A stretch of 34,725 nucleotides of DNA from Chloracidobacterium sp. (GCA_025362075.1 JANYIL010000062.1:1-34725); one strand, 5' to 3'; shown: positions 3,211-32,345, counted from the first letter of the stretch. Notes: a model not told the origin generated them from the sequence alone. A program made the numbers and translations.

Positions 3211-3292
3211 AAAATCTCTGCGTTGCTCTGCGTCTTCCTCAAGGCGGCCTCTGCGTTCAAATCCGGGTAACCGCAGAGTACGCAGAGATTTT
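3211..3292. repeat. Intergenic inverted repeat (aaaatctctgcgttgctctgcg ... cgcagagtacgcagagatttt)
   Basis: Arms 3211-3232 and 3271-3292 nearly complementary. Confidence 0.75.
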
Positions 3293-3432
3293 CGCAGAGA
3301 ACGCGGAGAAGACTGCTACGCATTGTACACGCCACAAACCAGAACGCTGCCACCCGATTAAACACCGCCGGACGGGGGCCACCGCTACCAATTATTTACA
3401 CAACCCGCCCGCCCAAGCTAAACTCAATATTT

Positions 3433-3918
3433 ATGGCTGAGTCGATCGCGTTTACAAATGGTGCCGGCCGCAAAATGGTCTATGGCGAGCTGGCGCCGCA
3501 GATCGAGGCGCTGCTGGCGGGCGAGACCGATCTCGTGGCAAATCTCGCGAACGTGGCCGCCGTGTTGAAAGAGGCATTCGGATTCTTCTGGATCGGGTTT
3601 TACATCGTTAAGGACGGCCAGCTTGTGCTAGGCCCGTTTCAGGGGCCGCTCGCGTGTACGCGGATCGCTTTCGATCAGGGCGTTTGTGGCCATGCATATA
3701 CGACGCGGCATACGGTGATCGTCGCGGATGTGGACGAATTTCCCGGGCATATTGCCTGTGCTTCGGCGTCGAGGTCCGAGATCGTCATTCCCATACTTGA
3801 CCGGAGCGGAGCCGTTTTCGGCGTTTTGGACGTCGACAGCGACAACCTCGACGACTTTGGCCAGGCGGACGCCGACGGACTCGGTCGGATAGTAGAGATA
3901 ATTCAGCGGACGATCTAG
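3433..3918 (+). CDS. msrC: GAF-domain free methionine-(R)-sulfoxide reductase
   Basis: LGPFQGPLACTRIAFDQGVCGHAY...FPGHIACASASRSEIVIPI with the three characteristic cysteines. Confidence 0.88.
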   Translation: MAESIAFTNGAGRKMVYGELAPQIEALLAGETDLVANLANVAAVLKEAFGFFWIGFYIVKDGQLVLGPFQGPLACTRIAFDQGVCGHAYTTRHTVIVADVDEFPGHIACASASRSEIVIPILDRSGAVFGVLDVDSDNLDDFGQADADGLGRIVEIIQRTI

Positions 3919-13287: not shown

Positions 13288-14124
13288 ATGCGCCTGACCG
13301 ACCTAATTCCGACTATAAACACGCTGCGAAATGTTCTCGACATTACGCTGGTTTTTATCATCGTGTACGTCGTGCTCAAGCTATTTCGCGGCACGCGGGC
13401 TGTTCCGACGGTCGTAGGGATGGTCATTCTCGCGTTGCTTTACTGGCTCGCGGCGGCGCAGGAGTTGTCAACGCTCGAATTCGTGCTTCGTTACGCTGTC
13501 GGTTTTATCGGCATCGCGATCATAGTGCTGTTTCAATCCGAGATTCGGCAAGCGTTGATGTATTTTGCCAACCGTTTGCGTTTTCCGATCCTAAATCGAC
13601 AGCGGGGACAATTCGGCGGCAGCGTGTATGACGAGATCGTTCTTGCGGTCACGACACTGGCCTCCGAAAAGACCGGAGCCCTTATAGTTATTGAACGCAA
13701 TGTGGGATTGCGCAATTTCGTCGACGCCGGGGTCCAGCTCGATGCCCGGCTGAGCTACGACCTGCTCGTGACGATTTTTAACCCGTCGACACCGCTCCAT
13801 GATGGGGCCGTCGTTATACAAAACGAACGCCTCGCGGCCGCATCGGTCTTTTTACCGCTGACAAAAAACCCTGAAATTTCACGCGAACTCGGCACCCGCC
13901 ACCGCGCGGCCATCGGCATCACCGAGGGCTCGGACGCCATTTCAATCGTAGTTTCTGAGGAAACCGGCCTCATCACATACGTCGAGGCGGGCGTCGTCCA
14001 CCGCAACCTGGATACGACCCAGCTTCGCAAATTCCTCCTCGATGCCCTCGAGATACCGTTGATCGAACTGCGGGAAAAAAAGGTATTCACGACAGAGAAC
14101 ACAGAGGGCACGGAGATTGTTTAA
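13288..14124 (+). CDS. cdaA: Diadenylate cyclase CdaA
   Basis: N-terminal TM helices; DAC domain with STPLHDGAVVI and GTRHRAAIGI. Confidence 0.93.
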   Translation: MRLTDLIPTINTLRNVLDITLVFIIVYVVLKLFRGTRAVPTVVGMVILALLYWLAAAQELSTLEFVLRYAVGFIGIAIIVLFQSEIRQALMYFANRLRFPILNRQRGQFGGSVYDEIVLAVTTLASEKTGALIVIERNVGLRNFVDAGVQLDARLSYDLLVTIFNPSTPLHDGAVVIQNERLAAASVFLPLTKNPEISRELGTRHRAAIGITEGSDAISIVVSEETGLITYVEAGVVHRNLDTTQLRKFLLDALEIPLIELREKKVFTTENTEGTEIV

Positions 14125-14130
14125 AAAACG

Positions 14131-15015
14131 ATGGCCGGTAAGCTCTTTGCAAAGCATATAGTTCGAAAGATATTCCTCGAGGACTGGGGCCTAAAACTGG
14201 TGGCGCTCGTCATTACGCTTGCCCTTTGGTTTGGGGTGACTGGCCTCAGCAAACCATCCAAGGAACAGATTAGCCGGATACCGCTAAACCCGACGATCTC
14301 GACTGAAACCTTGATCACAAACGCCATCAAACCGGATATCGACATCTTTGTCAGCGGTGACAAACGAAATCTGGACAAGATCGTCAAGGGCGACCTCTCG
14401 GCCAGTCTTGATCTGTCCGAGGTTCCTCCCGGTGACTGGGTGATCACCCTGTCGCCCGATACCATTTCGGTAAATCTGCCGCAGGGCGTAACACTCGACA
14501 GGGTTCAACCCGGCAATCTCGCCGTCAAGATCGAGGCTGTCGCCGAAAAGGATATCGAGGTCAAGCCGGAAACAGTCGGCACGGTCGCGCCGGGATACGA
14601 GATCTACAGTTCGTCGTCGATCCCGCAAAAGATCCGCGTCCGCGGCCCGGCAAGCATTGTTGATAAACTCGAATACGTCCAGACCGACAAGATCGACATC
14701 ACCGGACGGCTTGATGGTTTTACGGCAAAACAGATCCCCGTAAACGCCTCCGACCCGAAAGCCGCCGTGCTTAATACGGTCGTCGATGTCTATTTCAAGG
14801 TCGGCGAAAAGCGCGTCGAACGTGAATTTACGGTACCCGTATCTGGAAGCCCGGGCAAAATCGCAACCTTTTCGATCTATGGGCCAAAAACCCTGATAGC
14901 AAAGACGCGGGCAGACGCTTTCAAGATCGAAACCGGAAGCTATGATACGCCACAGGTCGTCCTGCCCGCCGAGCTTCAGGATCTGGTCGAGGTCAGAAGG
15001 TTAAGGGTTAAATAG
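14131..15015 (+). CDS. YbbR-like domain protein (CdaR-type)
   Basis: N-terminal TM then YbbR repeats; 6 bp downstream of cdaA. Confidence 0.82.
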   Translation: MAGKLFAKHIVRKIFLEDWGLKLVALVITLALWFGVTGLSKPSKEQISRIPLNPTISTETLITNAIKPDIDIFVSGDKRNLDKIVKGDLSASLDLSEVPPGDWVITLSPDTISVNLPQGVTLDRVQPGNLAVKIEAVAEKDIEVKPETVGTVAPGYEIYSSSSIPQKIRVRGPASIVDKLEYVQTDKIDITGRLDGFTAKQIPVNASDPKAAVLNTVVDVYFKVGEKRVEREFTVPVSGSPGKIATFSIYGPKTLIAKTRADAFKIETGSYDTPQVVLPAELQDLVEVRRLRVK

Positions 15016-17660: not shown

Positions 17661-17749
17661 TCCGAACAAACTGAAAATTAAAAACTGGCAACTGAAAATG
17701 AGGTGATTTCGTTTTCAGTTTTAACTTTTTAGTTTTCAGTTTCTTCGGA
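17661..17749. repeat. Intergenic inverted repeat, 38-nt arms
   Basis: tccgaacaaactgaaaattaaaaactggcaactgaaaa vs RC of 17712-17749 tccgaagaaactgaaaactaaaaagttaaaactgaaaa. Confidence 0.9.
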
Positions 17750-22635: not shown

Positions 22636-23898
22636 ATGACGCAACCCAAAATTTCTAAAAACCGCATCTCAAGCAAAGCCGCGAGCTTTACCGAATCGGT
22701 CATCCGCGAGATGACACGTGAGGCGTTAAAATACGGGGCCGTTAATCTCGGTCAGGGCTTCCCCGATTTTGCCGCTCCGGACGACATCAAGCAAAAGGCC
22801 ATCGAGGCGATCGCCGCCGACCATAACCAATATGCGATAACGTGGGGCGTTAAGAGCTTTCGCGACGCCATTGCGGCTAAAACAAAGTGGTTTTTGGGAA
22901 TGGATGTTGATCCGGAAACCGAGATCACGGTCACGTGCGGATCAACCGAAGGTATGATCGCCGCGATGATGGCGACGGTCGATCCGGGCGAAGAGGTCGT
23001 CGTTTTCGAACCTTTCTACGAAAATTACGCCCCCGACGCGATCCTCTCGGACGCGACGCCGCGGCATGTGCCGCTGTATCGGACGGATAACAGTTTTATC
23101 TTTGACCGCGAAGAGCTGCGCTCCGCATTCAACGAGAAGACCAAGGGGATCATCATCTGCAATCCGAACAATCCGACGGGCAAGGTCTTTACCCGCGATG
23201 AACTCGAATTCATTGCCGACCTCTGCAAGGAATTTGACGCTCTTTGTTTTACCGACGAGATCTACGAACACATCATCTACGATCTAGCGAAAAACGGAAA
23301 ACGGATAACGGAAAATGATAAGTCCGAAGAACGACTGATAACCGACAACCGACAACCGACAACTCCCCACACCTGCATGGCCAATATCGAAGGGATGCGT
23401 GAACGGACGGTTGTCGTAAATTCGCTATCCAAAACATATTCAGTGACCGGTTGGCGCGTCGGTTACTGCATCGCCCCGCCTGATATCACCTCAGCGATCC
23501 GCAAGGTCCACGACTTTCTAACCGTCGGCGCCGCAAATCCGCTCCAGCACGCCGGTGCCTATGCTCTGGGTTTGCCGCCCAGCTACTACGACGATCTCCA
23601 GCGTGACTACCAGAAAAAACGCGATTTTATCGTCCCGATACTGCAAAACGCCGGATTCAAATGCGACCTTCCGGACGGCGCCTACTATGTAATGTGCGAT
23701 ATTTCGGCGTTTGGCTTTCCTAACGACATCGAATTTACAAAACACCTGATCCGCGAGATCGGAGTCGCGGTTGTGCCGGGCTCGTCGTTTTACCATGACC
23801 CGGCAATGGGATCACAGTTGGTTCGGTTCTGTTTCTGCAAAAAGGACGAAACGCTAGACGCCGCCGCCGACAGATTGAAAGGACTGGAACGCTGTTGA
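22636..23898 (+). CDS. Pyridoxal-phosphate-dependent aminotransferase (class I/II) with repeat-derived in-frame insertion
   Basis: NLGQGFPDF, NPNNPTGKVF, DEIYEHIIYD, VVNSLSKTYSVTGWRVGY. Confidence 0.93.
   Translation: MTQPKISKNRISSKAASFTESVIREMTREALKYGAVNLGQGFPDFAAPDDIKQKAIEAIAADHNQYAITWGVKSFRDAIAAKTKWFLGMDVDPETEITVTCGSTEGMIAAMMATVDPGEEVVVFEPFYENYAPDAILSDATPRHVPLYRTDNSFIFDREELRSAFNEKTKGIIICNPNNPTGKVFTRDELEFIADLCKEFDALCFTDEIYEHIIYDLAKNGKRITENDKSEERLITDNRQPTTPHTCMANIEGMRERTVVVNSLSKTYSVTGWRVGYCIAPPDITSAIRKVHDFLTVGAANPLQHAGAYALGLPPSYYDDLQRDYQKKRDFIVPILQNAGFKCDLPDGAYYVMCDISAFGFPNDIEFTKHLIREIGVAVVPGSSFYHDPAMGSQLVRFCFCKKDETLDAAADRLKGLERC
23290..23318. repeat. Arm-like repeat inside aminotransferase gene, same family as element at 29440
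   Basis: aaaaacggaaaacggataacggaaaatga differs by one base and one 7-nt tandem unit from 29440-29475. Confidence 0.8.
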
Positions 23899-24691: not shown

Positions 24692-25747
24692 TCAGATCAA
24701 GCGGAAATCGGGATTATTCTTCCTCCGCCAGACAAATCCATCCAGCACGTAATGCGTCAGTTGCGGCAGAGCGAGCAGCGGTGCGATAAATGTCCGCATG
24801 TCGTGGGTCCAGTTCCAGTCGCCGCCGAATAGCCATTGCCGCTCATGCCACACGCCGCGATGCCAGAAAAGCTCTTCGAAATACGCCAGGGCCCAGAGTG
24901 TGGCAAGGAATACTAGCCAGTTTGACGACAGCACGCGGTAAACGCGACCCGTCGTCTCCCTCCGCATCCGGGCGTAAACATAGATCAATGCAAAATACGG
25001 CACGCCGTGGATGATCACGTTGGTCACCGTAAAGGCATAGTCCGAATTGAAATACACGATGCCTATATACCAGCAGATAGCTGTCGTCGCGACGACGATG
25101 TCCTTGCCGATATTCAGAAAGCCGTGTGTGAAATAGAGATAGATCGATTTTGCAAAATAAGCGGTCAACGCAAGAACGTAGATTGGAAAAAGAATCGTTT
25201 CGACGATTGCCGGTATCGATATGAAATCGTTCTTTACGAACCACTCAAAATTACGCGGCAGCCGCGTCATCCAAAACGCAAGGGGATAAACGCTCGCCAG
25301 GTAGATCGCTGCCGCATCGACCCACCACGTCCAACGTTCCGTTTCCTTGAGTTTGCGCCGATAGAGATTTACCCAACCGTATTGCTGCCTGATAAAATGA
25401 AAAACCGCGACCGCCGCGAGCGCCTTCCAAAAAATAAGCTCGCCCTCGGAATAGAGCGCAACGCCGATCGCATAACCAAAAACCGGCACCAACAGATAAA
25501 GCCAAAACCGGCGTTTGAACTCTTCCTTATCAAAATAGACGCGGAAGCTGGTCGACCAGACGTGTGCGACGTCGATAAAAAGTACCGCCATCACCCATGT
25601 CCACTCCGGCGATTCGCCATTCAACAGGCCGATCTGTGAACCGACCACCAGCAGCAAAAGCGACGCAACGGCGCTCCCCAAAAAGACCGTCAGATCGATC
25701 TCACGGGAAAAGAGCCAGTAGTTTGTTTTTGAAAGTGTTGCGTCCAT
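24692..25747 (-). CDS. Polytopic integral membrane protein (likely start 25747; ORF track start 25783 includes repeat-derived codons)
   Basis: Multiple hydrophobic helices from MDATLSKTNYWLFSREIDLTVFLGS. Confidence 0.7.
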   Translation of the reverse strand: MDATLSKTNYWLFSREIDLTVFLGSAVASLLLLVVGSQIGLLNGESPEWTWVMAVLFIDVAHVWSTSFRVYFDKEEFKRRFWLYLLVPVFGYAIGVALYSEGELIFWKALAAVAVFHFIRQQYGWVNLYRRKLKETERWTWWVDAAAIYLASVYPLAFWMTRLPRNFEWFVKNDFISIPAIVETILFPIYVLALTAYFAKSIYLYFTHGFLNIGKDIVVATTAICWYIGIVYFNSDYAFTVTNVIIHGVPYFALIYVYARMRRETTGRVYRVLSSNWLVFLATLWALAYFEELFWHRGVWHERQWLFGGDWNWTHDMRTFIAPLLALPQLTHYVLDGFVWRRKNNPDFRLI

Positions 25748-25752
25748 AAACC

Positions 25753-25892
25753 GACTGGAGCGGCAAGCATCCTTGCTTGCCACGCCGGTTCCTCCGACGT
25801 TACGGCACTCCCGCGCATCTCACATTGAATTTATCCGATCTCAACGGCGGTCTTTCGACCGCTGGCAAGCCGGGATGCTTGCCGCTCCAGTC
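25753..25892. repeat. Inverted-repeat element, 29-nt arms each with internal stem
   Basis: gactggagcggcaagcatccttgcttgcc (25753-25781) vs ggcaagccgggatgcttgccgctccagtc (25864-25892). Confidence 0.92.
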
Positions 25893-27483
25893 ATATGATC
25901 TCACCCGCAGCGTGCAGTCCATGATAAAACGCTTCTTCAAAAAGCGCGATGCCGCTCAGGTCGGTGTGGGCAAAATGGATGTTGCGGTACGGCTTAACCG
26001 CCTTTTCGCGAATGCCACTCCATATAAAATTTGGCCTTGGGCTAATCATCGCATGGCCCCAACGCATCACGTCGAGCCGCTCCGTCAATTCGTAAATATC
26101 CGGATGCGCCCGAGCAAGATCGGTCAGGCAGACATCGGCAAGCTGTTTCCATTCGTAATTAAAGAGCGTCGTTCGGCCATTCGGTTCGGCACACATCGGA
26201 TAGTAATAGGTCAGGATCGTCGGGCCGTAATCGATGCCTTTTTGATGGGTCGCGGTCACATAACCGAGCGATGGGCTTTCGTACAAAACGTTGTCCCAGG
26301 ATAGCGGAAAATCCTTTGGGAACCTCGGTTTCGGCCGGTCTTTCAGAAAAAGATTGGCTACGAACCACGCATTGTGCTGAAATTCGCCGGCGGCAAACGG
26401 CGGGTTTTCGCGAAAACCACGTATGACCCACGGTGCCGTAAATACAGGCGATGAGTAAATGATCTTTTCGCAATGAATGCCTCGAATCTCGTTACCGTCG
26501 AGGCAAACAACATCGACGCCCTTTTCGTTTGGCTCGACCGAGACGACCATCTGCGATCTGCGAACGTTGTCTTTGACCTTGTCGTAAAAATGATTTACAA
26601 ACTGGCCGTTGCCCTCCGGGCAAGTTATGAACGGCTGCGATTCCGCGCCGCTTTTGCGGACACGCGAGCAAAAATAGAACAGCCCGACCCACGCCGACGC
26701 CTGATCGACCTTGAGCCCGTAATCGTCGCGGGTCGCGTAATCGCAATACCAGAGCAGCCGCTCGGACGTGAAACCATTCTGCCGCAGCCATTCGGCAAAT
26801 GTGAGCTTATCGAGAGCTGTAACGGTCGCGTCGTTCGAGCACATCTCAAGCGGCACGACAAACGCCCGCCGCCCGCGAGCATCACGCCAGTTGACCCACT
26901 TATCGATATGTTTCTGAAAGTCTGCGAATTGCCGCTTATCATCCTCGCTCGCTCCGGCGTTGAGATAAAGCCCTTCATACCAACGGCCTTTGTAAAATAC
27001 GCGCTCCTCGGGTTCACGGCATAGAAACTGCTCTTTGACCACAACTTCGCCTAAGGCATCGCGCCCTTCGATCAGCGACATCTCGTCCAGAAACGAGATC
27101 AGGTCGTTGTTTTCCTTAAACGGTACCGGCAGATAATGCGCCCCCCACGGATAGCCAACCGGCTCACCACGATCGCTGCGGGCCGTGCCCCCGATCTCCT
27201 TTTCAAGTTCGAGCAGGACAAAATCGTTGAAATTATCTTTCTTGAACTTCCACGCCGCCGTCAGCCCCGCAACACCGCCACCGACGATCACGACCCTTTT
27301 CGTTTCCCATTTGTCGGCAGGAACTTCAAATTTGCGGTTTTCTCTAAGAACGTGCCCCAGACTTGCGGATTGCCCTATAATCTCGCCTTCGGGAAACAGG
27401 CGCGATTCTTCCGACTGGCACGCAGCAAACGCAAACGGTGCTCCGAGGAATAGGGTCAGCAGTTCTCGTCGTGTGAGGGTCAT
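25891..27483 (-). CDS. FAD-dependent amine oxidoreductase with Tat/lipoprotein-type N-terminus (likely start 27483)
   Basis: MTLTRRELLTLFLGAPFAFAAC; RVVIVGGGVAGLTAAWKF dinucleotide-binding motif; GGTARS. Confidence 0.85.
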   Translation of the reverse strand: MTLTRRELLTLFLGAPFAFAACQSEESRLFPEGEIIGQSASLGHVLRENRKFEVPADKWETKRVVIVGGGVAGLTAAWKFKKDNFNDFVLLELEKEIGGTARSDRGEPVGYPWGAHYLPVPFKENNDLISFLDEMSLIEGRDALGEVVVKEQFLCREPEERVFYKGRWYEGLYLNAGASEDDKRQFADFQKHIDKWVNWRDARGRRAFVVPLEMCSNDATVTALDKLTFAEWLRQNGFTSERLLWYCDYATRDDYGLKVDQASAWVGLFYFCSRVRKSGAESQPFITCPEGNGQFVNHFYDKVKDNVRRSQMVVSVEPNEKGVDVVCLDGNEIRGIHCEKIIYSSPVFTAPWVIRGFRENPPFAAGEFQHNAWFVANLFLKDRPKPRFPKDFPLSWDNVLYESPSLGYVTATHQKGIDYGPTILTYYYPMCAEPNGRTTLFNYEWKQLADVCLTDLARAHPDIYELTERLDVMRWGHAMISPRPNFIWSGIREKAVKPYRNIHFAHTDLSGIALFEEAFYHGLHAAGEII

Positions 27484-27910
27484 ACGGAATAAGTGATAGG
27501 TACAAAGTGAAAGGTAATAAGTTATTGTTCGGTTTCCCGGAGTGTTTTGATGGCTGATATCAGCATTTTCTGAAGCTCTTCGCAATCATCGAGTAGTGAT
27601 CTGGTCTGTGTCTCGCTGATAAACTCGCCATCTCTCAAAAGACGGAGTAGTTTGTTTTAAAGGCTTCTTTATTTGCTATCGAATATTTTTGACGGAGTTC
27701 GATTCGATCGTCACCCTGTTTGCCTTCCTCGATGAACAAACCAATGTTGATACCGCTGTCGAGGATCTTTTTCGAAATTACAAACTCCTTCTTTTCCGAA
27801 TGGAGAACTCGCTCAATCTAACGATCCGCAATGCAAAAGCATAAGACTTATCTCTCAATGGATCTGCCATAACTTTTAACCTTTCACCTATTACTTATAA
27901 CTTATTCCGG
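27484..27910. mobile_element. Composite unit: 40-bp imperfect inverted repeats flanking an S23 four-helix-bundle pseudogene
   Basis: 27484-27523 matches reverse complement of 27871-27910 at 32 of 40 positions without gaps. Confidence 0.7.
27522..27870 (-). pseudogene. Four-helix bundle (S23/IVS-type) protein, two frameshifts
   Basis: MADPLRDKSYAFALRIVRLSE / VLHSEKKEFVISKKILDSGINIGLFIEEGKQGDDRIELRQKYSIANKEAFKTNYSVF / LRLLRDGEFISETQTRSLLDDCEELQKMLISAIKTLRETEQ* in successive frames. Confidence 0.75.
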
Positions 27911-27915
27911 AGATG

Positions 27916-29439
27916 CTATTGCTCAAACCGTCGCCACTCAGCCTCATAATATCGAACCAATGCTTGATTATCTAACCTGTTTATCTCGATCTCGTCGTTT
28001 GGACGTGATGTGTCGCTAGGAAATTCAAACATTGACGCAAAAGAATTGTCGTTGAGAAAACGAAGCTCGATGCCCGCCGGCGGCTTAGCCGGTTGGTCAA
28101 AAGGCTGTAGTTTTGCGAGTGCGTAGCCCCAGATGCCAAAGCTCGGCACCGTCGTTTGATATGGGCGGACAGTGAAACCTACAGATTCGAGGGTTTTGAC
28201 GATACACCAGAACGATTTACGGGCAACGAGCGGTGAGGTGGTCTGAATAACGACCGACGAATCGGGCTTGAGCTTGTTTTTCAGAAGGTTGTAAAAGCGG
28301 GTCGTGTAGAGCTTGCCGAGGGCAAAATTGTTCGGGTCCGGAAAATCGACGATGGCGATGTCGAATGGCTCGGTCTGCGTATTGTCGAGCCAGACGAATG
28401 CGTCCGCGTTTGTCACGTGCACGCGCGGGTCGCTGAACGAATGCTTGTTTAGCTCGCCAAGCGGAGGCACCGCGACCGAGACTTTCGTCATATCCGGATC
28501 GAGATCGACGAGCTGGATAAATTCTACCGAATCGTATTTTTCGATCTCGCGCAACGCAAGGCCGTCGCCACCGCCCAGTACGAGCACGCGTTTTGCGACT
28601 CCGTCATATGCCGCAAACGGCGGATGGACGAGCGCTTCGTGATAACGGTATTCGTCAAACGAACTGAATTGCAGATTGCCGTTCAGGAAAAGCGAGTAGC
28701 CAAGCTTTCCTTTGGTCACGACGATCCGCTGATACGGCGAGCTTTTGGCGTAAATGATGTTGTCGGCAAACAGGGCGTCCTCGGCGAGCGTCGTCAACCG
28801 GTCGGCCTTGATAAAGGCAATTATCAGGAGAACGAGGATCACGGCGCCTTTGACACGCATGATCGTTACATTTTTTTTGATCAGCGGCAGCAGCAGCCAC
28901 GTTCCCCAGATTCCTACGCCCGCGTTGAACATGCCAAAGAGCAGCGACGTGCGGGTGAGTCCTAATTTTGGAACAAGAAATATCGGGAACAGCAGCGATG
29001 CCGCCAGAGCTCCGATGTAATCAAATGCAAGAACTCGCGAAACGAGATCTTTGAAATCGAGTTCGTCTTTCAGGATCCGCATTAGCAGCGGAATCTCGAG
29101 GCCGACCAGAACGCCAATCACAAAAACGACGCCGTAGAGCACGATACTGAAATACGAAAGATGGGCGAATGTCAGAAACAGCAGCGGTGCCGAAAATCCG
29201 CCGACGACCGCCACCGCCAGCTCAACCTCGACAAATTTACCGGCGATATCCTTATCGATAAATCGCGACAGCCACGAACCGACGCCCATTGCAAACAGGT
29301 AAATGCCGATGATTATCGAAAATTGTGTGACGGAATCGCCAAGGACGTAGCTCGAAAGGGTTCCCGCAAGCAGCTCATAAAAGAGCCCGCATGTGGCGAT
29401 GACAAAGACGTTGAGAAAAAGTAGCGGCGCGCGTTTCAT
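27916..29439 (-). CDS. Spermidine synthase-like protein with N-terminal membrane domain (likely start 29439; track start 29490 lies in a repeat)
   Basis: N-terminal multi-TM; VLVLGGGDGLALREIEKYDSVEFIQLVDLDPDM; DIAIVDFPDPNN. Confidence 0.88.
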   Translation of the reverse strand: MKRAPLLFLNVFVIATCGLFYELLAGTLSSYVLGDSVTQFSIIIGIYLFAMGVGSWLSRFIDKDIAGKFVEVELAVAVVGGFSAPLLFLTFAHLSYFSIVLYGVVFVIGVLVGLEIPLLMRILKDELDFKDLVSRVLAFDYIGALAASLLFPIFLVPKLGLTRTSLLFGMFNAGVGIWGTWLLLPLIKKNVTIMRVKGAVILVLLIIAFIKADRLTTLAEDALFADNIIYAKSSPYQRIVVTKGKLGYSLFLNGNLQFSSFDEYRYHEALVHPPFAAYDGVAKRVLVLGGGDGLALREIEKYDSVEFIQLVDLDPDMTKVSVAVPPLGELNKHSFSDPRVHVTNADAFVWLDNTQTEPFDIAIVDFPDPNNFALGKLYTTRFYNLLKNKLKPDSSVVIQTTSPLVARKSFWCIVKTLESVGFTVRPYQTTVPSFGIWGYALAKLQPFDQPAKPPAGIELRFLNDNSFASMFEFPSDTSRPNDEIEINRLDNQALVRYYEAEWRRFEQ

Positions 29440-29515
29440 AAAAACGGAAAATGGATAACGGATAACGGAAAATGAAAAAACAGCAGTCATTTTCCGCTTT
29501 CCATTTTCCGTTTTT
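29440..29515. repeat. Inverted-repeat hairpin aaaaacggaaaatgga(taacgga)taacggaaaatga ... tcattttccgctttccattttccgttttt
   Basis: Arms 29440-29475 and 29487-29515. Confidence 0.88.
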
Positions 29516-29524
29516 CAATTTGGC

Positions 29525-29785
29525 TTAGCTGTGGACAGCCGCCGAAATAATCATTGCGACGCCAATTATTACAGCTCCGATAATGATCGCGAGCGAAGTA
29601 TTCTGGTCGACTTCGATCTCTTTCTTGACCGAGAATGGAGCAACCAACACGATGATAAGGAAAGCAAGTGCAAATACGACCAGGCCAAAAGCGACAAATA
29701 TGACCGTTGTTTCGATAGTGGTCCAAAGCTTATCCAACTCAACGGCGAGCCCGAGAACCGGGGCGATTGTTAGCAAATTCAACAT
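29525..29785 (-). CDS. DUF350 family small membrane protein
   Basis: 86 aa, two to three TM helices, VFVAFGLVVFALAFLIIV ... QNTSLAIIIGAVIIGVAMIISAAV. Confidence 0.82.
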   Translation of the reverse strand: MLNLLTIAPVLGLAVELDKLWTTIETTVIFVAFGLVVFALAFLIIVLVAPFSVKKEIEVDQNTSLAIIIGAVIIGVAMIISAAVHS

Positions 29786-29934
29786 TATTTTCCTCCGTGA
29801 AATCCTGAATAAAAGAACGGCACTCCCAAACGCGAGTGGCTGCCGGAATTAGCCAATTCCCAGCCAAACCAGGTCGAGACCCCATAAAATGCAAGGATGC
29901 CGATACCGAAAACCATATAGAGTTTTTTTAACAT
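29785..29934 (-). CDS. 49-aa putative small membrane protein, not in ORF track
   Basis: MLKKLYMVFGIGILAFYGVSTWFGWELANSGSHSRLGVPFFYSGFHGGK*; stop overlaps DUF350 start (TAATG); GGAGG-like RBS for DUF350 inside it. Confidence 0.75.
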   Translation of the reverse strand: MLKKLYMVFGIGILAFYGVSTWFGWELANSGSHSRLGVPFFYSGFHGGK

Positions 29935-29951
29935 AAGTCTTAATAGTTTAT

Positions 29952-30015
29952 TGAGTTTGTAGAGTTCGTTGAGAAAAACATTTTCTCAACGAACTCTACA
30001 AACTCTACAAACTCA
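29952..30015. repeat. Inverted-repeat hairpin tgagtttgtagagttcgttgagaaaa ... ttttctcaacgaactctacaaactctacaaactca
   Basis: Right arm has one extra 9-nt tandem unit. Confidence 0.9.
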
Positions 30016-31962
30016 CTCCTCCGAGTCGTCCGAACTATCCGACGATGACGCCCCGCTAGAGCTAAACATGCTCTCTTTCCACCGACCGGATTCGAACGAC
30101 ATTTTACGAAACAGCCCAAGGATCGGCATTATCAGCAAAACGAGGAACGCGCAGCAGAAATTGACGCCGCGGTTCACGCCCTGCTCGACCTTAACGGAGA
30201 CAGGTATCTGAGTCTGCCATTTCTCCCAGGTACCATGCACGTGCAGCGTATATTTCCCGGCCGGGACCGACGACAACGTTGCGTCGGTCGACTTATCGCC
30301 CTCGCTCCAAGATTCGCCGTCATCGACACCGCTGTAATATTCGATCGGGATATTGATCTCTTCGGCGATCGCACCGCTCTGCTCGTTGACCAGATCGACA
30401 TCCAGGCTCGCCCATGAATTATCGACCTGGGCTCCCGCTGTAACGCGGACATTCTGGTTCCCTTTTAGATCGAACGGCTGACTGGTGACGATCTGCTCGG
30501 TCGTCGCGTTAGCCATCGGCGGCAGCACGACATCCTGCGACATGACCGTTTTCGTGAGCCCCGTCAGAGGGATGCTAAATATCGCCACCACGATCAGCAG
30601 CAGCAGCGGCAACGCTCCCCACGTGTAATAAAAACGCCCCGTAAACGGCTGATTCGGTGCGATGCCCCACGGCCGCGGCAGGCCCGAGATGCCGAAGATC
30701 TTTTCGATCTCATCATTGGTCATGTAGGTGCCGACCGACCAATTGATCTCGTTCTGCGAGATCTCCTGCGACAGCATCAATGGGGCGGCGACATAATCGA
30801 CTGCACGGACGGTCTCGCCCTGCTCGACACGCCAGTAAAATTCGCCTTTGACGTACTCGACAACCGCCGGCGCGTCCTGAAAGATCTTGAACGTATTGCC
30901 GTTGTAATTGACTGTCGTACCGAGCGGCTCGACCTCGGCGGCATTCACCGGTTCGACAAAATTCCAGTGGTTATCCGAATGCACCAGCCAGCGAAACCCA
31001 ACCATCGGGTTGTACAACAGGTATTCGTGCCAATAATACTTGATACCGTCAATGGTAACGCTGCGGACGACGGCGCCGATGATCTTGAATTTGACGTCGC
31101 CGGGAAACACGCCCTCGGCACCGATCGGCGCGACAAAATCAGGCTGTTCCGGCGGCGGATTGAGGGCCTTGAGATAGGTGAGCTTGCCCTTATTGACATC
31201 GAGCAGCGAATTGCAGTTCGGACATGTTACGCGTTCGGCCTTGTCGGGAGCCGTGAGCGATAGCGGCCCGCCGCAGTTCGGGCATCCCATACCGGTTGCC
31301 GAGACCGTCCGTGCCTCACGCTGGACAGGTTTTGCATCGCCGAGCCCGATCTCAGCAAGCGTGACCTGGGCACCGACAAAGACCCACGGCGGGTCCATGC
31401 TGTAATCGATCGTCGCAAATGCATTGTTCTTGCCCGCGAGATCGGCGTACGCAAATTGCTCGCCGGGCGTCAGCCTGTACGGTATCTCGCCATCGGCAGC
31501 GACCGCCGTTCCGTGGCCGCGTTCCTGAACCATCAGCGGTGTCGGGCTCGGTATCTCTGGGATCGTCTGGCCAAGCTGCAACCCGTCAAACGTCGGCAAG
31601 GCAACGCCTGCGGGTAGAGGCTGATAAAACGTCAGGTAAAATCGCCCTTGTGCCTCGGCCAGCCAGCCGACCCAGCCGTTTGAGAACGTTGCGTACCATT
31701 CGTCCCAATACCCGCCCAGCTCATGCCGGTTTTGCGCCCGGCCGGTCAGCTCAAAATGTGTATCTTTGTATGTCCCTTTCAGGCCTAGCTTTAGCGGAGA
31801 TTCCGAATCGGCAATTTCGGCGACCTTGCCCAGGTCTTCAAGTCCACGATCAGTCCTCGCGACCGCCGAGCGGCAGTATGGGCACACCAGAACTATGGTC
31901 GAACCGGCCGTAAATTCGATCGACGCCCCGCAGGTCGGGCAATTTGCCTTTAGCACGCTCAT
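30013..31962 (-). CDS. DUF4178 domain-containing protein with zinc-ribbon-like CxxC motifs
   Basis: CPTCGASIEF...CPYC; CPNCGGPLSL...CPNCNSLLDV; C-terminal TM segments. Confidence 0.8.
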   Translation of the reverse strand: MSVLKANCPTCGASIEFTAGSTIVLVCPYCRSAVARTDRGLEDLGKVAEIADSESPLKLGLKGTYKDTHFELTGRAQNRHELGGYWDEWYATFSNGWVGWLAEAQGRFYLTFYQPLPAGVALPTFDGLQLGQTIPEIPSPTPLMVQERGHGTAVAADGEIPYRLTPGEQFAYADLAGKNNAFATIDYSMDPPWVFVGAQVTLAEIGLGDAKPVQREARTVSATGMGCPNCGGPLSLTAPDKAERVTCPNCNSLLDVNKGKLTYLKALNPPPEQPDFVAPIGAEGVFPGDVKFKIIGAVVRSVTIDGIKYYWHEYLLYNPMVGFRWLVHSDNHWNFVEPVNAAEVEPLGTTVNYNGNTFKIFQDAPAVVEYVKGEFYWRVEQGETVRAVDYVAAPLMLSQEISQNEINWSVGTYMTNDEIEKIFGISGLPRPWGIAPNQPFTGRFYYTWGALPLLLLIVVAIFSIPLTGLTKTVMSQDVVLPPMANATTEQIVTSQPFDLKGNQNVRVTAGAQVDNSWASLDVDLVNEQSGAIAEEINIPIEYYSGVDDGESWSEGDKSTDATLSSVPAGKYTLHVHGTWEKWQTQIPVSVKVEQGVNRGVNFCCAFLVLLIMPILGLFRKMSFESGRWKESMFSSSGASSSDSSDDSEE

Positions 31963-32345
31963 CGTTCGCCTCCTGCGGTTTCAAATCTCAGATCTGAAAT
32001 TTGAGATCCTCCCCGGTCTATCTTTGTAACCGTAACTTGGGCAGCGCGAAGAACGGTCTTGAGGTTTGCATCCCAATCCCACTCGGGCCGCTCGCGGCAG
32101 CAGTAAAGATTAAATGTCCCGGTTTGGTGTTCCGGATAGGTGTGACAGGCAAGGTGCGACTCGGTCAACGCCACGAGGCCGGTGACGCCGCCCTCGCCCT
32201 CGAATTTGTGCCAGACGGAGCCGATCGCTTTTAAGCCAAGCTCCGCGATTACGCGGTCGAGTATCCAACGCAGAACGGATTCATCGCGCAGGGCAGCCTT
32301 GTCGCAACCCGTCGCCTCGATCAACCATTCCGTTCCAACGATCAT
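31959..32345 (-). CDS. speD: S-adenosylmethionine decarboxylase proenzyme
   Basis: LTESHLACHTYPEHQTGTFNLYCC, processing-site ESH; ATGA overlap with DUF4178 gene. Confidence 0.92.
   Translation of the reverse strand: MIVGTEWLIEATGCDKAALRDESVLRWILDRVIAELGLKAIGSVWHKFEGEGGVTGLVALTESHLACHTYPEHQTGTFNLYCCRERPEWDWDANLKTVLRAAQVTVTKIDRGGSQISDLRFETAGGER

Follow-up and report, generated by a model that had tools for sequence, protein, structure and literature searches.

Small inverted-repeat elements with word-built arms at the gene junctions of a Chloracidobacterium polyamine operon

Introduction

The 23S rRNA of Coxiella burnetii contains an intervening sequence (IVS) of 428 nt with a 28-bp terminal inverted repeat and a gene for the S23p/IVP protein. 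This IVS has been called selfish and its mobility has been discussed; rRNA IVSs of the same size and protein are excised by RNase III, and the function and origin of rRNA IVSs were still termed unclear in 2016 (PMC4990558). Here we describe elements of this and other kinds at the gene junctions of a minus-strand operon in a 34,725-nt stretch of DNA from Chloracidobacterium sp. (GCA_025362075.1 JANYIL010000062.1:1-34725; hereafter the window). The operon runs in the order speD–DUF4178–small open reading frame (ORF)–DUF350–speE–FAD-dependent oxidoreductase (FAD)–membrane protein, and inverted repeats are present at four of its six junctions. Three of them (29440–29515, 29945–30013 and 27484–27910) belong to one class, which we name word-armed elements: in its full form, an arm of 3–5 near-identical short words, one small gene and a complementary arm. 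The first two are gene-less members of the class and the third is a decayed IVP element.

The element at 27484–27910 has both a PF05635 protein and a terminal inverted repeat (41 nt, 83%), the features of an IVS, and it resembles that of C. burnetii in size (427 nt against 428), in its terminal repeat (41 nt against 28 bp) and in protein family. Unlike the 23S rRNA IVSs, it sits between the protein genes speE and FAD. Unlike the C. burnetii IVS, for which excision is known, elements of this kind are seen here as sequence only, in many copies per genome and each with its own word arms. A second group for comparison is formed by the palindromic repeats Correia/NEMIS, ERIC, RUP and Chunjie, which are short and mostly intergenic; RNase III cuts the transcripts of Correia elements, and Chunjie has inserted into an operon (PMC2229807, PMC10969869). 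Word-armed elements are likewise short, palindromic and mostly intergenic. However, those repeats have a fixed consensus, whereas word-armed elements keep a word rule with letters that vary from element to element, and their full-length forms carry the gene for IVP or a second protein, GxxExxY, and no transposase. Finally, Avd of the diversity-generating retroelements is a four-helix-bundle relative of PF05635 (PMC10053308), the family found in IVP elements; unlike in those retroelements, no reverse transcriptase was seen within the word-armed elements, the DNA near them not having been searched.

Results

All junctions were compared with those in the operons of 20 same-genus relatives. Many of these genomes are metagenome-assembled, and most relatives are 73–77% identical to the window at the nucleotide level, so that insertion boundaries and target duplications cannot be fixed. 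The speE/FAD junction is an empty 4-nt overlap (ATGA/TTGA) in G033, G030, G032 and G004, and G025 and G035 come close to this; in G033 and G030, the relatives with the closest speE, the overlap is ATGA. An insert of 418–465 nt fills the junction in this genome and in G036, G012, G003, G017 and G015, and short remnants are left in G002 and G022. The state of the junction changes at least six times on the operon-protein tree. The inserts encode a four-helix-bundle 23S_rRNA_IVP protein (PF05635, TIGR02436), which is intact in G012 (PF05635 E=1.7e-17), except in G015, where the protein encoded is GxxExxY (PF13366, PDDEXK_3; TIGR04256). In the window the ORF has decayed, and its PF05635 match (E=1.4e-4 at 27644–27796, minus strand) therefore falls under the curated cut-off.

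Other junctions vary as well. Most relatives have a DUF4178/small ORF gap of 7–20 nt; in this genome it measures 79 nt, and in G036, where the hairpin is a different one, 145 nt. At the FAD/membrane-protein junction the extremes are an overlap (G027) and inserts of several hundred nucleotides with other genes. At this junction, L039, L043 and L051 (in G013, G017 and G004) hold a hicA/hicB-like toxin–antitoxin pair, of which the G013 copy was checked (HicB E=1.1e-15; HicA below the cut-off, E=9.3e-5). At speD/DUF4178 nearly all of the 21 genomes have a 4-nt overlap; in G012 (L048) a gene for a REP-associated tyrosine transposase, flanked by REP-like sequence, has opened this junction. As judged from these comparisons, the junctions of the operon were invaded by small insertions. 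A sequence-only reading of the window had predicted that relatives would have empty sites with restored overlaps, and 4-nt overlaps of this kind are what their junctions display.

Word-armed elements recur throughout the genus and beyond. This genome has 15 matches to PF05635 (1–17 across 37 same-genus genomes) and 6 to PF13366 (0–11 across the same genomes). A bracket score of at least 15 was reached by 33 of 44 IVP and 27 of 35 GxxExxY loci in the genus, the 95th percentile of 101 control genes being 10.5; at a score of at least 13 (strands as listed) the count is 69 of 79 loci against 2 of 101 control genes (p=4e-36). Across the phylum, 25 of 28 IVP loci have arms (controls, 1 of 53). Across many phyla, so do 58 of 80 GxxExxY loci (controls, 0 of 140), or 61 of 80 with a slightly wider search window; this sample is drawn from genomes labelled planctomycetes, chloroflexi, proteobacteria, verrucomicrobia, bacteroidetes, desulfobacteria and others, with one Methanothrix.

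The arms are inverted repeats of 15–45 nt, with words of 7 nt (some 8–9) in IVP elements and of 9–10 nt in GxxExxY elements. Their mean autocorrelation is 0.57 at 7 and 14 nt for IVP in the genus and 0.57–0.67 at 7 nt overall, over a background of about 0.25; for GxxExxY it is 0.50 at 9 nt and about 0.25 at most other shifts. The letters are particular to each element, for example GTAAATC, AGTTCAA, AATGCGG and GGGACCT for IVP and CCACAGAGA, GCCACGAAT and CCGCAGAGA for GxxExxY. As for the cargo proteins, IVP matches the solved structures 2rld and 2gsc; a sequence search with GxxExxY gave no relative of solved structure, and its alignment displays invariant PD-(D/E)XK active-site residues E, Y, D, E and K. 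Neither protein was matched in PADLOC. One GxxExxY element, L091 (G000 C24:12416-12760), has a complete word hairpin as each of its flanks, and looks as though it had inserted between two gene-less hairpins or been assembled from them.

Each cargo protein appears to know its own repeat word, as suggested by the correlation of word similarity with protein identity (Mantel test; GxxExxY r=0.52, p=0.001; IVP r=0.15, p=0.009). Shared subfamily descent, which a cognate pair would also give, may explain part of the GxxExxY correlation. Two IVP elements of this genome, L076 and L077, have proteins that are 76% identical and the same word, at sites with non-homologous flanks; pairs of like elements in different genomes are L292/L293 and L164/L165. 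In several families, gene-less hairpins bear the words of a full element of the same genome, as read by eye.

The elements are strongly oriented and placed. The cargo gene is sense to its neighbours at 58 of 59 codirectional junctions in the genus and at 59 of 61 in the wider sets (117 of 120 in total; strands as listed). The element usually starts at most a few nucleotides from the upstream stop codon, which often overlaps the first bases of the arm. Without the gene-bearing element, the gap left is at most 45 nt in 43 of 59 cases, and such gaps make up 7% of codirectional intergenic DNA. Of the gene-less word hairpins, none of 30 lies inside an ORF, against 6 of 49 REP-like repeats (p=0.08 for this difference alone). 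Among those in codirectional gaps, 15 of 21 stand where the gap is otherwise at most 45 nt (p=2e-13), and in longer gaps the stop side is favoured (15 of 17). An inability of antisense copies to express their gene may account for the sense bias, and the stop-codon position may reflect targeting, selection or both. A purine-rich first arm was considered as an orientation signal and dropped, since an inverted repeat reads alike on both strands.

This distribution could also be obtained with no targeting, if short mobile repeats landed at random and survived only between cistrons, the position behind stops being purely the outcome of selection against broken genes. Coding DNA is 89% of the sequence, so gene-breaking repeats would be purged, and REP-like elements are likewise concentrated at gene ends. 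However, the excess of word hairpins in tight gaps, their absence from ORFs and their preference for the stop side are not what random landing would give, and it leaves the 117:3 sense bias unexplained unless expression of the gene is also selected. We thus regard purely random landing as possible but doubtful. The broader proposal of the sequence-only reading, that the elements target or survive at stop/start junctions, draws strong support from the empty sites and from these counts.

We searched 714 kb of the genome in 61 contigs (1.02 Mb including the relatives' operon loci). Hairpins with an arm score of at least 16 number 75 in the 714 kb and 0 in dinucleotide shuffles. Since such elements occur about once per 10 kb genome-wide, the three hairpins of the operon are only a mild excess (Poisson p about 0.03, post hoc), and the phenomenon is therefore genome-wide and not specific to the operon. 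RNA fold z-scores of the operon's three short elements are −7.2, −12.5 and −9.4. An Rfam search gave nothing at curated thresholds, and sub-threshold miRNA matches merely reflect hairpin shape. The family of 29945–30013 has about six further long matches in the genome, and its sites include the rpsJ/rplC, groES/groEL and mreB/mreC gaps and positions behind fabI and rpsO (names read from translation starts); IVP elements on contig C126 are flanked by the same words. Like a miniature inverted-repeat transposable element, 29945–30013 is short and non-coding, has inverted-repeat termini and exists in several copies; its ends are not those of a transposase-bearing parent, the word arms being common to IVP/GxxExxY elements with no transposase inside.

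Further word arrays were seen elsewhere in the window. A word hairpin of GxxExxY type (GCCACGAACTACACGAATTACACGAA), with the words of the GxxExxY element L092, lies at 177–258, between an ORF ending at 171 and a peptidase-like ORF starting at 286. Words of CGCAGAG type in inverted order, pyrimidine-rich arm first, lie at 3213–3310, between the peptidase-like ORF and an ORF at 3433. At 14084–14124 a lone word arm (CACGACAGAGAACACAGAGGGCACGGAGA) forms the final codons into the stop of ORF 13288–14124, in a tight junction with an ORF at 14131; this solitary arm is a solo-arm relic. A 7-nt-word hairpin at 17661–17749, in a long divergent gap, is one of the few distant from gene ends. Arrays of the 7-nt words GGAAAAC/GGATAAC and AACCGAC, mutually non-complementary, lie in frame at 23286–23365 inside an aminotransferase-like ORF (22636–23898).

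The DUF350/speE junction is filled in 15 of 15 members of one clade and in 0 of 6 of its sister clade. The gap measures 78–90 nt in 14 of the 15 and 117 nt in G010. The words differ, being GGAAAATGG in this genome, G030 and G035, CACGGAGACGCGG in G033, G015, G026 and G012, AAAGGATAAAGG in G036 and G023, ACAGGATAG in G025 and G034, and others elsewhere, and the word type changes at least ten times on the tree. Fold z-scores run from −2.7 to −7.4 in all 15 clade members and from −0.4 to +1.2 in the sister clade. We take this to be a site that is refilled again and again, perhaps with some RNA-level benefit at this junction alone.

The same observations bear on the alternative that the hairpins are selected RNA punctuation, kept because the operon requires signals for processing, stability or coupling at its junctions, with a sequence that may turn over freely. 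Folding confined to one clade, a near-constant gap despite the word changes and arm mismatches that on the transcribed strand are more often G-U than A-C (44 against 24, p=0.02) agree with such a role at DUF350/speE, the mismatch bias being modest and drawn from related genomes. The remaining three junctions, however, are empty in many relatives, and in hairpin arms genome-wide G-U mismatches do not outnumber A-C ones on that strand (14:22 and 15:15), a test by which RNA selection on all hairpins was rejected, DUF350/speE excepted. Maintenance at the RNA level is thus weakly supported, as is the suggestion of RNA punctuation made from the sequence alone, and we consider punctuation unlikely as the general explanation.

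The fourth repeat, 25753–25892, is best filed as REP/BIME-like. Its two arms are in inverted order with a 7-bp inner palindrome in each, its units have 28 matches in the genome at about 15 distinct places, and two REP-associated tyrosine transposases score over the cut-off in this genome. It was probably moved by such a transposase, the cognate pairing being putative. A single REP/BIME-type family that comprises all four repeats and is moved by these enzymes is very improbable: the two transposases, and the one at the G012 speD/DUF4178 junction, would suit it, but the long inner palindrome is confined to 25753–25892, and the other three have word arms without one, of the type that accompanies IVP or GxxExxY genes instead. 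A separate REP/BIME-like repeat (GTCAGAACCACCTGCGGTAGCGGGTGGTT) lies in frame at 2547–2673 inside the 965-aa peptidase-like ORF, and similar in-ORF repeats occur at L055 and L065.

The coordinates of the operon and its repeats are given in Table 1. The repeat arms are mostly long word arms ending at or beside a start codon. Computation recovered the inverted repeats that the sequence-only reading had placed at four of six junctions, with outer limits differing by 0–7 nt; the two overlapping junctions that it had named are ATGA (speD/DUF4178) and TAATG (small ORF/DUF350), and the short repeat in the speD 3′ end is a palindrome. Its description of the repeats as different elements needs qualifying: they do differ, but each belongs to a family of its own with members elsewhere in the genome, and the operon mixes three kinds.

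Table 1 Features of the operon and its junctions (stops exact, starts approximate; gene calls made for the present analysis)
Feature	Position	Strand	Details
speD (S-adenosylmethionine decarboxylase)	31959..32345	-	PF02675 E=1.4e-24
Palindrome, 24 nt, in speD 3′ end	31981..32004		
DUF4178 protein	30013..31962	-	PF13785 E=3.5e-26
Gene-less word hairpin	29945..30013		9-nt words GAGTTTGTA/GAGTTCGTT, loop 3 nt; arms 29945-29977/29981-30013, 33 nt, 94%; 1-nt overlap with DUF4178 stop
Small ORF, 49 aa	29785..29934	-	Called by gene caller; place kept in most relatives; no match in Pfam search
DUF350 membrane protein	29525..29785	-	PF03994 E=1.2e-9
Gene-less word hairpin	29440..29515		7-nt words GGAAAAT/GGATAAC; arms 29440-29465/29490-29515, 26 nt, 88%; last base directly precedes speE start 29439
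speE-like polyamine aminopropyltransferase	27916..29439	-	NF002956 E=9.3e-195
IVS-like element, 427 nt	27484..27910	-	Missing in G033, G030, G032, G004; arms 343 nt apart, 1 nt short of base preceding FAD start 27483
IVS-like element, 5′ arm (as transcribed)	27869..27909	-	41 nt, 83%
IVS-like element, 3′ arm (as transcribed)	27485..27525	-	
Decayed four-helix-bundle (23S_rRNA_IVP) ORF, split across three frames	27522..27870	-	PF05635, translations
FAD-dependent amine oxidoreductase	25891..27483	-	PF01593 E=1.4e-14
REP/BIME-like inverted repeat, own palindrome in each arm	25753..25892		Arms 25753-25782/25863-25892, 30 nt, 93%; overlaps FAD stop, 5 nt from start 25747
Conserved membrane protein, last in cluster	24692..25747	-	Present in relatives' operons; no match in Pfam search

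Discussion

We think it probable that the operon's junctions were invaded by small elements, built on inverted repeats, that settle directly behind stop codons, three of them of the word-armed class and the fourth a separate REP/BIME-like one. This explanation brings together the bracketing of the cargo genes, the word periodicity, the cargo-specific words, the stop-codon position, the sense orientation and the empty and filled orthologous sites, along with gene-less hairpins that bear the same words and related elements at unrelated sites. Overall, the sequence-only reading holds up well on targeting or survival at junctions and weakly on RNA punctuation.

We infer the mobility of word-armed elements from such comparisons, and a possible cycle can be outlined. 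The cargo gene would be translated from the host operon mRNA, and its protein would recognise its own arms, causing full elements to be copied or inserted and acting likewise in trans on gene-less hairpins. The host would tolerate elements placed between cistrons, since these leave every reading frame intact. Once transcribed, the arms would pair and probably be cut by RNase III, by analogy with rRNA IVSs of the same size and protein (PMC4990558) and with Correia elements (PMC2229807, PMC10969869), both of which are so cut.

Several points weigh against this explanation. Detectable arms are missing at about 13% of the IVP/GxxExxY loci in the genus and at about a quarter of the wider GxxExxY sample. 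The word–protein coupling of IVP is weak, and we know of no enzyme activity for IVP proteins. Gene-less hairpins are linked to gene-bearing elements by common words, with no mobilisation event observed; no protein is proven to drive transposition, and no single insertion is dated. A search for target-site duplications yielded none, the empty sites being known only from relatives too diverged to define the exact target. The sense bias, finally, could stem from selection to keep the small gene expressed and not from an insertion rule.

No description of a class of word-armed elements was found in the open literature, where no paper prints any of six typical words or links the IVP family to inverted repeats plus transposition; drawn from open papers only, this absence is weak evidence. 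To us the chances are about even that these elements form an unrecognised, phylum-crossing class of mobile elements, which would insert in sense at the stops of expressed genes, whose IVP or GxxExxY protein would read its own 7- or 9-nt word and spread gene-less hairpins in trans, and of which the rRNA IVS would be a special case.

The present analysis places the S23/IVP protein in elements that exist in multiple copies between protein genes, almost always in operon sense and mostly just after a stop codon, and finds the unrelated small GxxExxY protein, with nuclease-like residues, in elements of the same architecture in many phyla. It thereby suggests a role for IVP and GxxExxY, two very common proteins of unknown function, and the mobility of the elements that carry them becomes directly testable.

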